DNA of 64,000 nt, taken from contig DATMAB010000027.1 of assembly GCA_035573675.1 (NCBI GenBank), forward strand, positions 62,001 through 126,000, read 5' to 3'. The first letter of the stretch is position 1; every line of letters starts with the position of its first letter. The DNA is from Terriglobales bacterium (GTDB taxonomy: Bacteria; Acidobacteriota; Terriglobia; Terriglobales; Acidobacteriaceae). The notes beneath the pieces were generated by a model that was not told the origin of the DNA, made no database searches, and worked only from the letters and a program-made list of their open reading frames with translations. Below are positions 17,120 through 51,865 of the stretch, piece after piece. Both the position numbers and the translations under genes were made by a program.

Positions 17120-18409
17120 ATGAGAAGACCTCTTCTCGCACTGATCCCGCTCCTGGGTTTCGCCGCCCTCGCTCCCGCCCAGGACGTTACGCGTCCCACC
17201 GGCAAGAACGAGATTGTCATTCGCAACGCCACCCTGCTCACCGTGACGCACGGCCGCATCGAGAACGGTTCCGTCTACATCAAGGATGGCAAGATCGTCG
17301 CCTTCGGCGCCCGAGTGGACGTGCCTGCCTCCGCCACCGTGATCGAGGCCGCCGGAAAGTTCGTCACTCCCGGCATCATCGACGCGCACTCCCACTCCGC
17401 GCTCGACGACGACGTCAACGAGGCCACCAGCCCGGTGACACCCCACATGCGCATGCAGGACGCCTTCGACTACACCGACAAGGCCGTCTACCGCTCGCTC
17501 GCCGGAGGGGTTACCACGTCGCTCTCCCTGCACGGTTCGGCCAACATGATCGGCGGGCAGGCCATCGTCTTCAAGCACAAGTACGGACTCGGCCGCGACC
17601 AGATGCTGTTCGCCGGCGCGCCACGCTCCATCAAGTTCGCCTCCGGCGAGAATCCCAAGCGCGTTTACGGCGCGCTGAAGCAGATGCCTTCCACGCGCAT
17701 GGGTAACTTCGCCGTGCAGCGCCAGGCGCTCGCCGAGGCCCGCGACTACATGCACGAATGGGACCAGTACGAAGCCAAAGTTGCCAAGGGCGACGCGGAT
17801 GCCAAGCGTCCCAAGCGCGACCTCAAGCTCGAAGCCCTGGCCGAAGTCCTGCGCGGCCACTTCCTGGTGCAGATCCACTGCTATCGCGCCGACGAGTTCC
17901 TCACCGAGATCGCCATCGCGCGTGAGTTCGGCTACAAGATCCGCGCTTTCCATCACGCGCTCGAGGCCTACAAGGTGCCGGAAGAGATCGCGCAGGAAGG
18001 CATCGCCATCGCCACCTTCGCCGACTGGTGGGGCTACAAGCACGAAGCCTGGGACGCCATCCCCTGGAACGCGGTCATGGCCATGCGCAAGGGCGTTCGC
18101 GTCGCCATCAAGAGCGATTCCAACGACTTTGCCCGCCGCCTGAACCAGGAAGCCGGCAAGATCATGCGCTACGGCGGCGCCACCGAGGACGAAGCTCTCC
18201 GCATGATCACCCTCAACCCCGCCTGGATCATCGGCGTCGAAGACCGTGTAGGCTCCATCGACGTCGGCAAGGACGCCGACCTGGTCATCTGGGATGGCTA
18301 CCCGCTCTCCAGCTACGGCCGCCCCGACAAGGTCTTCATCGACGGCGACCTCTACTTCGACCGTTCGCTTCCCGGCTACGGCATGCCGCAGTACAAGGAG
18401 GGGAACTGA
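17120..18409 (+). CDS. Secreted metal-dependent amidohydrolase (catalytically intact member of a pair)
   Basis: A 429-residue protein with signal peptide (MRRPLLALIPLLGFAALAPAQ). It has an imidazolonepropionase-like TIM barrel. Metal-ligand candidates are intact: DAHSHS (HxH) near residue 90, QIHCYRADE, AFHHALEAY and the late Asp in IKSDSNDFARR. The substrate is unknown, as family members cleave amide or ester bonds in small cyclic or dipeptide-like molecules. GGAGG lies 9 nt before the ATG at 17109-17113. The stop TGA overlaps the ATG of the next gene (ATGA), so the two are translationally coupled. Confidence 0.9.
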   Translation: MRRPLLALIPLLGFAALAPAQDVTRPTGKNEIVIRNATLLTVTHGRIENGSVYIKDGKIVAFGARVDVPASATVIEAAGKFVTPGIIDAHSHSALDDDVNEATSPVTPHMRMQDAFDYTDKAVYRSLAGGVTTSLSLHGSANMIGGQAIVFKHKYGLGRDQMLFAGAPRSIKFASGENPKRVYGALKQMPSTRMGNFAVQRQALAEARDYMHEWDQYEAKVAKGDADAKRPKRDLKLEALAEVLRGHFLVQIHCYRADEFLTEIAIAREFGYKIRAFHHALEAYKVPEEIAQEGIAIATFADWWGYKHEAWDAIPWNAVMAMRKGVRVAIKSDSNDFARRLNQEAGKIMRYGGATEDEALRMITLNPAWIIGVEDRVGSIDVGKDADLVIWDGYPLSSYGRPDKVFIDGDLYFDRSLPGYGMPQYKEGN

Positions 18410-19899
18410 TGGAAGCCACCGCGAAAGGCTCTCTTGCTCTGCTGACCTCTTCGACGGAGCGCTCGTGCACCGCTGGCCTCGGGTCGTTCAGGTCCTCCTC
18501 CAGCCGTCATCCCGAGCGAGGGAGCGCTCCCGCGCGTTCTCTCCAGCGCGGGAAACCCGAGTCGAGGGATCTCGGGGTTGCGTTTGCTGGCGTGGGCCGC
18601 GTCTTGCTGCTTCACGGCCTCATCGTTCTCTGCGCCGCGGTCGCCCACGCTCAATCGCCCTCCGCTCCCATCGCCCTGCGCGGCGGCAAGCTGCTCACCG
18701 TTTCGCACGGCGTCATCGACAACGGCGTGCTGGTCATCGACAACGGCAAGATCGCCGCCGTCGGCCGGAGCGGAGAAGTCGCCATCCCCAAAGCTGCGCG
18801 TGTGATTGATGTCAAGGGCATGACCGTCTACCCGGGGCTCATCGACTCGCACACCAACCTCGGCCTCACCGAGATCACGCAGGTCGCCATGACCAACGAC
18901 CTGGTCGAGCCCAGCGACGAGATCACCCCCCACATGCACGTCTACGACGCCTTCCACGCCGAGTCCGAACTCATCCCCGTGACGCGGATGAACGGAATCA
19001 CCAATGCCATCGTCGCGCCTGCGGAGACCAACACGCTCCCCGGCCAGTCCTCACTCGTTCAGCTCGACGGCCGCTCCCGCGACCAGATGCTTCTCGTCCG
19101 CGACCTCGCCCTCATGATGAACTTCACCGGCGCCCAGCGCCGCAACGAGACCTGGGATTCGCGCAAGTTCCCCCAGACCCGTATGGGGCTGGCCGCACAA
19201 CTGCGCCAGGCTTTCCTCGACGCCCAGGATTACGCCCATCGCTGGGAGGAGTATGAAAAGCGCAAGGCCGCCAAAGAGAAAGACCCGTCGCTCAAGGACA
19301 AGGAACGTCCCAAGCGTGACCTCAAGCTCGAAGCCTTGCTCCCCTACCTGGAAGGCAAGAAGCCCGTGGTGCTGGCCGCCGAGGAGGCCAGCGACGTCGA
19401 AGTCGCGCTCAGCTTGGCGCGCGAATTCAACCTGCGCGTCGTGCTCAACCACATTACCCATTCGCAGACTTTGCTGGACAAGATCGCCGAGGCCAAACTT
19501 CCGGTCATCGTCGGCCCCATTTATCGCACGCCCAAGGACAACGAACGCTACGATGTGGTCTATCGCCTCCCCGCGGAACTGGCGCGCCGCGGCATCAAGT
19601 TCGCCTTCGCCTCCTACGACGCCCACGACGTGCGCAACCTGCCCTACGCTGCCGGCTACGCTGTCGCCTGGGGTGTCCCGTACGACGAAGCCTTGAAGGC
19701 CCTGACGCTCAATCCCGCAGAGATCTGGGGAGTGGCAGCTCAGTTGGGCTCGCTCGACGTCGGCAAGACCGCCAACGTCGTCGTGGCCGATGGCGACCCC
19801 CTCGATGTCCGCACCGACGTCAAGCGCGTCTTCATCGCCGGCCGCGAAGTCCCCCTCACCAGCCGCCAGACCGCGCTTCGGGACGCGTATATGAAGTGA
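18409..19899 (+). CDS. Secreted amidohydrolase-fold protein lacking metal ligands (partner of the upstream gene)
   Basis: A 496-residue protein. It aligns along its whole length with the protein upstream but has lost metal ligands: DSHTNL instead of HxH, VLAAEEASD instead of the IHCYRADE segment, and SYDAHD instead of SDSND. It is probably an inactive partner or scaffold in a hetero-oligomer (inference). The N-terminal 60 codons are dominated by a dispersed repeat (18507-18577). The recognisable signal peptide (LLLHGLIVLCAAVAHAQ) starts only after it. A GTG near 18590 could be the original start, while the ATG at 18409 overlaps the upstream stop. Confidence 0.85.
   Translation: MEATAKGSLALLTSSTERSCTAGLGSFRSSSSRHPERGSAPARSLQRGKPESRDLGVAFAGVGRVLLLHGLIVLCAAVAHAQSPSAPIALRGGKLLTVSHGVIDNGVLVIDNGKIAAVGRSGEVAIPKAARVIDVKGMTVYPGLIDSHTNLGLTEITQVAMTNDLVEPSDEITPHMHVYDAFHAESELIPVTRMNGITNAIVAPAETNTLPGQSSLVQLDGRSRDQMLLVRDLALMMNFTGAQRRNETWDSRKFPQTRMGLAAQLRQAFLDAQDYAHRWEEYEKRKAAKEKDPSLKDKERPKRDLKLEALLPYLEGKKPVVLAAEEASDVEVALSLAREFNLRVVLNHITHSQTLLDKIAEAKLPVIVGPIYRTPKDNERYDVVYRLPAELARRGIKFAFASYDAHDVRNLPYAAGYAVAWGVPYDEALKALTLNPAEIWGVAAQLGSLDVGKTANVVVADGDPLDVRTDVKRVFIAGREVPLTSRQTALRDAYMK
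18507..18577. repeat. TCATCCCGAGCGAGG...CGAGGGATCTCGGG repeat (family B) inside a coding region
   Basis: Two half-sites, CATCCCGAGCGAGG and CGAGGGATCTCGGGG, flank a short inner palindrome (CGCTCCCGCGCG...CAGCGCGGG). Related copies occur at 19,937, 47,640 and 60,923. Confidence 0.75.
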
Positions 19900-50377: not shown

Positions 50378-51865
50378 GTGACTGTCTGCATGCGGCGGCC
50401 TCTTCTCATCCTGCTGGTCCTCCTGCTGCCGCTGGCGTTGGCGGCACAGAAGAGTCGCAAGAAACCGCCACAGCAACTGCTGGTTCTGACCAACGTCAAC
50501 GTGGTGAATGTAACCGAAGGGTCCGTCGAGCCGCGCATGAATGTGCTCATCCGCGATGGCCGTATCGAAGCCATCGCCAAGCGGGCCCTGATCCAGGCCG
50601 GCCGCCACGTGCAAGTGGTCAACGCGGACGGCAAGTACCTCATCCCCGGCCTCTGGGACATGCACGTGCACACCGCCCTCCGTCCGGAAGCGGAGGGGAT
50701 GTTGCCGCTGTATGTCGCCTATGGCGTGATGGGAGTGCGCGACATGGGCGGCGACTTCGAGCGCATCCGGCACATGCGCGAGGAGATCGCCGCCGGGCGC
50801 ATGCCGGGCCCGACCATCGTTGCGCCAGGACCTTTTGTCGACGGGCCTCAGCCGGAGCCCGATCCCAGCTTTCTGCCCGTGGCCAACGCAGCGGAGGCGC
50901 GCGCGGCGGTGCGCAGCTTGAAGGCCCGCGGCGTGGACTTCATCAAGGTGCAGGCCGGACTGAGTCCGGAGGCCTACCGGGCGATTGCCGAGGAGGCCAA
51001 GCGCAGCGGCATCGCATTTGCCGGTCACGTTCCGGAATCGATGAACGCCGTGGAAGCCAGCGATGCCGGCCAGAAGAGCATCGAACACATGTCACCGGCG
51101 CTGCCCGGCGACGCCGCCATCCTGCTGGCGTGCTCCGGTCGTGAAGAACCACTGCGCCGCGAGCTGCTAGCCCTGCGCGCGCCGGAGGTGAAGCCGGAAG
51201 AGGCTCGAGCCCGCACGCGGGCGCTGCAGGCCGACCTGGTCTCCAGCTACAGTGAGGCCAAGTGCGACCGTGTGGTCGCGCGCCTGGCTCGCAACCGCAC
51301 CGTGGTGGTGCCCACGCTCATCTGGTCGGTTTCCATTCGTCCGGCGGCGCGCGAGGATCCCATCGGCCAGCTTCCCATGCAGTATGTGCCGGCGAAGTTG
51401 CGCGAGCGCTGGACCACCGCCCGCCGCAGCTTCCTGGAGAGCGCGCCGGAGGAGACGCTGGCGCTGAACCGGCAGATGGCGGAGATGGCGCAAAGACTTA
51501 CCGGCAAGCTGCATCGCGGCGGGGTTACGCTGCTGGCGGGCACGGACAATTTTGACGCCTTTGTGATTCCCGGCTTCAGCCTGCACCAGGAGCTGGAGCT
51601 ACTGGTGCGCTCCGGTCTTACGCCCGCCGAGGCCTTGCGCGCGGCAACCGTCAGCGCCGCGCGTTTCCTGGGCCGTCACAACGACACCGGAACCGTGGCC
51701 GCGGGAAAACGGGCCGACCTGGTCTTGCTGGACGCCAACCCGCTCGAGGACATCCGTCAAACCAGGCGAATCGCGGGAGTCGTGTTTGCCGGCAAGTATC
51801 TTTCGCGCAGCGAGTTGGACAAGCTGCTGGCCGAGCAAGAGAGGGCTGCGGCGGGCACGCCCTAG
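50378..51865 (+). CDS. Secreted metal-dependent amidohydrolase
   Basis: A 495-residue protein. The signal peptide (RRPLLILLVLLLPLALAAQ) begins from GTG 50378 or ATG 50390; neither has a clear ribosome site. All metal ligands are present: MHVHTA (HxH), the Lys in DFIKVQAGL, GHVPES and KSIEHM, and the Asp of LAGTDNFDAF. The substrate is unknown and the protein is not closely similar to the paired enzymes at 17-20 kb. It ends 38 bp before the vapBC operator. Confidence 0.88.
   Translation: MTVCMRRPLLILLVLLLPLALAAQKSRKKPPQQLLVLTNVNVVNVTEGSVEPRMNVLIRDGRIEAIAKRALIQAGRHVQVVNADGKYLIPGLWDMHVHTALRPEAEGMLPLYVAYGVMGVRDMGGDFERIRHMREEIAAGRMPGPTIVAPGPFVDGPQPEPDPSFLPVANAAEARAAVRSLKARGVDFIKVQAGLSPEAYRAIAEEAKRSGIAFAGHVPESMNAVEASDAGQKSIEHMSPALPGDAAILLACSGREEPLRRELLALRAPEVKPEEARARTRALQADLVSSYSEAKCDRVVARLARNRTVVVPTLIWSVSIRPAAREDPIGQLPMQYVPAKLRERWTTARRSFLESAPEETLALNRQMAEMAQRLTGKLHRGGVTLLAGTDNFDAFVIPGFSLHQELELLVRSGLTPAEALRAATVSAARFLGRHNDTGTVAAGKRADLVLLDANPLEDIRQTRRIAGVVFAGKYLSRSELDKLLAEQERAAAGTP

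Follow-up and report, generated by a model that had tools for sequence, protein, structure and literature searches.

The locus raises the question of why a gene for an amidohydrolase should be followed at once by a homologous gene whose product has lost the metal site. The window, a stretch of 64,000 nucleotides from a Terriglobales bacterium, was originally predicted to carry a translationally coupled pair of this kind, the dead member serving as scaffold or regulator in one complex. Both open reading frames were recovered where expected. Gene A (17120 to 18409, + strand) encodes an intact amidohydrolase of 429 aa, and gene B (18409 to 19899, + strand) a pseudo-amidohydrolase of 496 aa when counted from the coupled ATG, with a conserved part that begins at 18592. 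Direct reading of the translations reveals a hydrophobic, signal-like N-terminal segment in each. As predicted, the proteins are homologous from end to end (412 residues aligned, 33.7% identity, E 6.6e-59), and both fall into the amidohydrolase superfamily by their Pfam Amidohydro_1 scores (75.1 bits for A, 48.6 for B, cutoff 25). PDB 3ooq, an amidohydrolase of Thermotoga maritima MSB8, is the solved structure nearest to each of them. The model of B, which like the alignments uses the part from GTG 18592 and not from ATG 18409, has a pLDDT of 90.7 and matches 3ooq with a Z score of 50.8 and 2.0 Å over 382 residues (next entries, Z at most 25.5), so that B is predicted to be a complete barrel and no fragment. 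A D-Tyr-tRNA deacylase gene lies upstream of A on the opposite strand, and genes read from their translations as acyl carrier protein and ketoacyl synthase lie downstream of B. A weak further relative of A is present elsewhere in the window (50390-51760, + strand, an open reading frame of about 503 aa, E 6e-11).

The metal-site residues were located by alignment columns, all on the + strand. A has H90 and H92 of an HSH motif (codons 17387 to 17395), E177 (in GENPK), H253 of strand 5 (in IHCYRADE, 17876 to 17878), H279 of strand 6 (in FHH, 17954 to 17956) and D333 of strand 8 (in SD, 18116 to 18118). In the same six columns B has H87, N89, A181, A262, H287 and Y342, numbered from GTG 18592. The three losses originally reported are all real: H-T-N (18850 to 18858) replaces HxH, A262 (19375 to 19377) stands in the column of H253, and Y342 (19615 to 19617) in that of D333. 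The catalytic set of HxH, His, His and Asp is thus complete in A and reads H, N, A, H, Y in B, which retains the first His of HxH and the strand-6 His. An Asp does occur one residue past the lost one (SYD) in the window's B; it is not conserved in other B proteins. As for E177, it may not be a core ligand of A, because in paralogous proteins of the active type that position is taken by R, A, G or T while HxH, H, H and D are kept.

Relatives were collected from 94 loci, 14 from related genomes and the best 80 from a scan of a genome collection. They include a third paralogue, C, whose fragments scoring below 100 bits were excluded from the metal-site counts. All six positions are retained in 95 of 95 A proteins (one of them from the window), in 0 of 92 B proteins and in 0 of 71 C proteins. 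Most of the B proteins keep none of the positions (61), the others one (20), two (9) or three (2); for C the figures are 56 with none, 13 with one and 2 with two. The two B proteins that retain three of the six residues are those of loci L040 and L045, and the erosion is therefore traceable inside the window's own family. The possibility that B uses alternative ligands, on which the original prediction could have failed, found no support: four His columns are invariant in A, the best in B reaches 60%, and none in C reaches 50%. Nor did the columns of the B proteins contain any conserved set of His, Cys, Asp or Glu that could form a replacement metal site. The ligand loss that was first noted thus stands as an observation, but it is not special to this pair; it is ancient and general among B proteins.

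Linkage of the two genes is very tight. In 91 of the 94 loci B follows A immediately on the 3′ side, and in the other three the contig ends 260, 119 and 1 bases past the A frame. Three separate genes in the order C, A, B are found in 51 loci and A, B in 20; in others C precedes an A-B fusion (7), a C-A fusion precedes B (6), or an A-B fusion precedes C (5). The rarer arrangements are C, A (2), a C-A-B fusion (1), A alone (1) and A, C, B (1), the last of these (L076) being read as a cut C, A, B locus. Natural fusions therefore number 13 for A-B and 7 for C-A, the single C-A-B protein being counted in both. The original prediction was of a pair, and the partnership of A and B is supported, but most lineages add to it C, which appears to be a third dead paralogue, in the order C-A-B, outside the window's lineage. 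In 18 loci of the A, B group of 20, the sequence upstream extends for 2.7 kb or more without a C (L089 and L118 are cut upstream), and those 18 belong to the window's family or have record titles of Acidobacteria/Terriglobia. No separate C gene was found in the window's genome, where the best match of the C query was B itself. C is missing in this lineage and should therefore be dispensable, at least there. The record titles of the loci include Acidobacteria, Bacteroidetes (Algoriphagus, Roseivirga, Cyclobacterium and others), Gemmatimonadetes, Planctomycetota, Eisenbacteria and Krumholzibacteriia; single MAGs titled Actinomycetota, Acidimicrobiia or proteobacterium may be misbinned.

Because the first scan had been queried with A and only its best 80 loci kept, the linkage was retested in 247 Acidobacteriota genomes drawn separately; a few of them, including the window's own, were common to the first set. 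The A query matched 121 of the 247 genomes, and so did the B model, a tally that is weak by itself since the two queries can cross-match at those thresholds. With A places defined by an E value of 1.3e-94 or better (116 places in 109 genomes), 111 of the 116 were followed by a B place no more than 700 nt away on the 3′ side. Among the five exceptions, one B is cut by a contig end, one A ends at a contig end, and the other three, judged from coordinates only, lie 4, 360 and 426 bases from the 3′-side contig end. The cassette is patchy, as about half of the 247 genomes are without it.

The coupling of translation that had been proposed is borne out at the junction. The stop codon of A overlaps an in-frame ATG of B in the sequence TGATG (18407 to 18411, + strand), with AAGGAGG just upstream, and the same arrangement is found in the congener L039. 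At unfused junctions, an in-frame start from −4 to +3 of the stop was found in 49 of 77 cases for A to B, 36 of 60 for C to A and 3 of 5 for B to C, compared with 17.3% for random 8-nt spans inside the downstream genes (L076 excluded from the counts). The candidate start GTG 18592 gave way to ATG 18409 as the start of B, given the Shine-Dalgarno sequence and TGATG, and the fact that the overlapping ATG is the only in-frame B start listed in L039; GTG 18592 is a possible second start. The leader of B is unusually long, because a dispersed repeat (18503 to 18581, + strand, 45 places in the genome, itself included) lies in frame after the coupled ATG and ahead of the signal-like segment. A similar but shorter stretch is found at the same place in L039, also in frame.

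Is B then maintained for a function, and for which one? Loss of the ligands, taken alone, would fit a decaying pseudogene copy of A that has been retained by chance. Between the window and L039, dN/dS is 0.123 for B and 0.086 for A, so that B appears to be under purifying selection and not decaying; this low value, together with the state of the ligand columns across the B relatives, led us to reject a recent local decay. The B frames are open, and linkage and fusion recur across phyla; with dN/dS, these refute the pseudogene explanation, to which we attach practically no weight. B also has invariant or nearly invariant residues of its own: at the columns concerned, R132 is found in 100% of B and 0% of A proteins, and E94 in 98% of B and 0% of A. 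Such residues, and the purifying selection, could also be expected if B were an enzyme with a non-metal or alternatively liganded site, A and B being two enzymes of one pathway. B has, however, no conserved His or Cys set and few conserved polar columns (15 against 55 in A, at a level of at least 85%), and the fusions, like the strict adjacency, point rather to a structural partner. All this makes two separate enzymes very improbable.

Less easily put aside is a role of B as a ligand-sensing regulator, its former active-site pocket binding substrate or product and tuning A allosterically. The polar residues that B has of its own (E94, D103, R132, Y320, D321) speak for it, and several B-specific polar residues are predicted by the model of B to lie in loops after barrel strands 1 and 7. 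At the former ligand columns, nevertheless, B proteins differ freely in their residues, which is consistent with a loss of selection on the pocket as such, and we consider the regulator unlikely.

The explanation that we prefer is that A and B together form a single exported, hetero-oligomeric amidohydrolase in which only A is catalytic and B is a needed pseudoenzyme, C being added in other lineages; we regard it as probably correct. A would bear the sole metal-dependent active site. B would be an ancient pseudoenzyme occupying one protomer position of an ancestral homo-oligomer, and would be required to fold, assemble or activate A, while C would be a second pseudoenzyme in a further position, outside the window's lineage. 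Coupled translation, and in some lineages fusion, would hold the subunits stoichiometric. A natural A-B fusion (L079, 873 aa) was modelled as one chain, using an alignment with 12 other fusions. In this model, which concerns covalently joined barrels and not the window's own pair, the pTM was 0.78, compared with about 0.5 expected for two freely placed domains, and 118 residues were below a pLDDT of 50; the relative placement of the two barrels thus seems to be predicted with some confidence. The proposal of one complex with a dead partner is therefore supported by adjacency wherever the contig continues, by A-B fusions in 13 of the 94 loci, by start/stop overlaps and, only indirectly, by this pTM. 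We strongly infer a physical A-B complex; export, the dependence of A on B and the ancestral homo-oligomer we infer. Against an obligate partner, 3ooq, an active-type sequence with all six metal-site positions kept, may work without a dead one; no paper on 3ooq was found in the open-access literature. A bolder version, plausible but rather tentative, is that C-A-B is a secreted three-subunit hydrolase of several phyla, in which the active barrel is obligatorily flanked by two dead paralogues, its site being completed or gated by them, and which was reduced to A-B in the window's lineage.

A tree built from 38 of the 94 loci recovered A as a clade (46 of 46, support 0.977) and C as another (31 of 31, support 1.0). 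The B grouping (44 of 46, support 0.35) and the deeper B+C grouping (0.037) are weakly supported, and for this reason we make no claim on the order of the duplications. Ten more pairs of paralogues, tandem or fused, were tabulated from loci picked by hand (6 ‘p’, 2 ‘q’, 2 ‘s’), and in all ten one member keeps HxH, H, H and D and the other does not; this branch seems to be given to pairing a barrel of the active type with a dead one. Several other loci deserve mention. In one small Acidobacteriota genome, five genes of this branch stand in tandem (L139, 2670-10367, + strand): two pairs of an active-type and a dead member, and a gene for an 835-aa fusion that likewise joins the two types. In Algoriphagus lacus the C protein (L111, 3230-4930, + strand) extends beyond the barrel by about 100 C-terminal residues, which may form a small beta domain. 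Dead-type paralogues at G241:C36, G234:C17, G277:C11 and G285:C31 each have one in-frame TAA inside the matched stretch.

A and B scored below cutoff in the 25 NCBIfam families listed for each (69 matched by A, 47 by B), and among these no named equivalog (HutI, Xaa-Pro dipeptidase, NagA, others) gave a score above cutoff. Among 75 flanking open reading frames, hand-chosen for length and variety out of 154 listed, no family had more than 5 members, peptidase M28 and NlpC/P60 being the commonest; this is a weak clue to substrate. Our guess is an exported, peptidase-like activity, because the structural neighbours include dipeptidases and carboxypeptidases and peptidases are among these commoner neighbour families. 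Since A, B and C all look like plain amidohydrolases in profile searches, testing a single gene for activity might yield a false negative; should A depend on B (and C), this would help explain why a widespread group has no assigned function. The cassette also lends itself to the study of how a homo-oligomeric enzyme turns into a hetero-oligomer with dead subunits, as separate genes, pairwise fusions and a triple fusion form a graded series in nature.

A gene for a presumably secreted, metal-dependent hydrolase consistently beside, or fused to, one or two dead copies in several phyla suggests an undescribed complex; neither the A-B pair nor the C-A-B trio was found described in the open-access literature, which lacks most subscription papers. 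By structure, the next neighbours of B after 3ooq share the superfamily fold and are isoaspartyl dipeptidases, Xaa-Pro dipeptidases and arginine/lysine carboxypeptidases (1onw, 3n2c, 3mtw), and on the NCBIfam Xaa-Pro dipeptidase model A (62.5 bits) and B (64.5 bits) are both far below the cutoff of 500. Inactive amidohydrolase relatives that form hetero-tetramers are found in vertebrates, the CRMP or dihydropyrimidinase-related proteins, which are eukaryotic and cytosolic; these are not known to have an obligate active partner gene. The closest precedent is the pseudo-dihydroorotase of Pseudomonas aspartate transcarbamoylase. In P. aeruginosa, this inactive member of the amidohydrolase superfamily is reported to be needed for the activity of its partner, by assembly (PMC7053772). 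B scores far below the family cutoff for dihydroorotase itself (NCBIfam pyrC_multi, 35.3 bits, cutoff 279.05). The likeness is that a dead amidohydrolase-type chain goes with an active partner, although here what is seen is linkage and fusion. The partner in Pseudomonas is a transcarbamoylase of another fold, whereas here it is an intact paralogue of the dead chain, and, unlike in the Pseudomonas complex, two different dead chains are possible.
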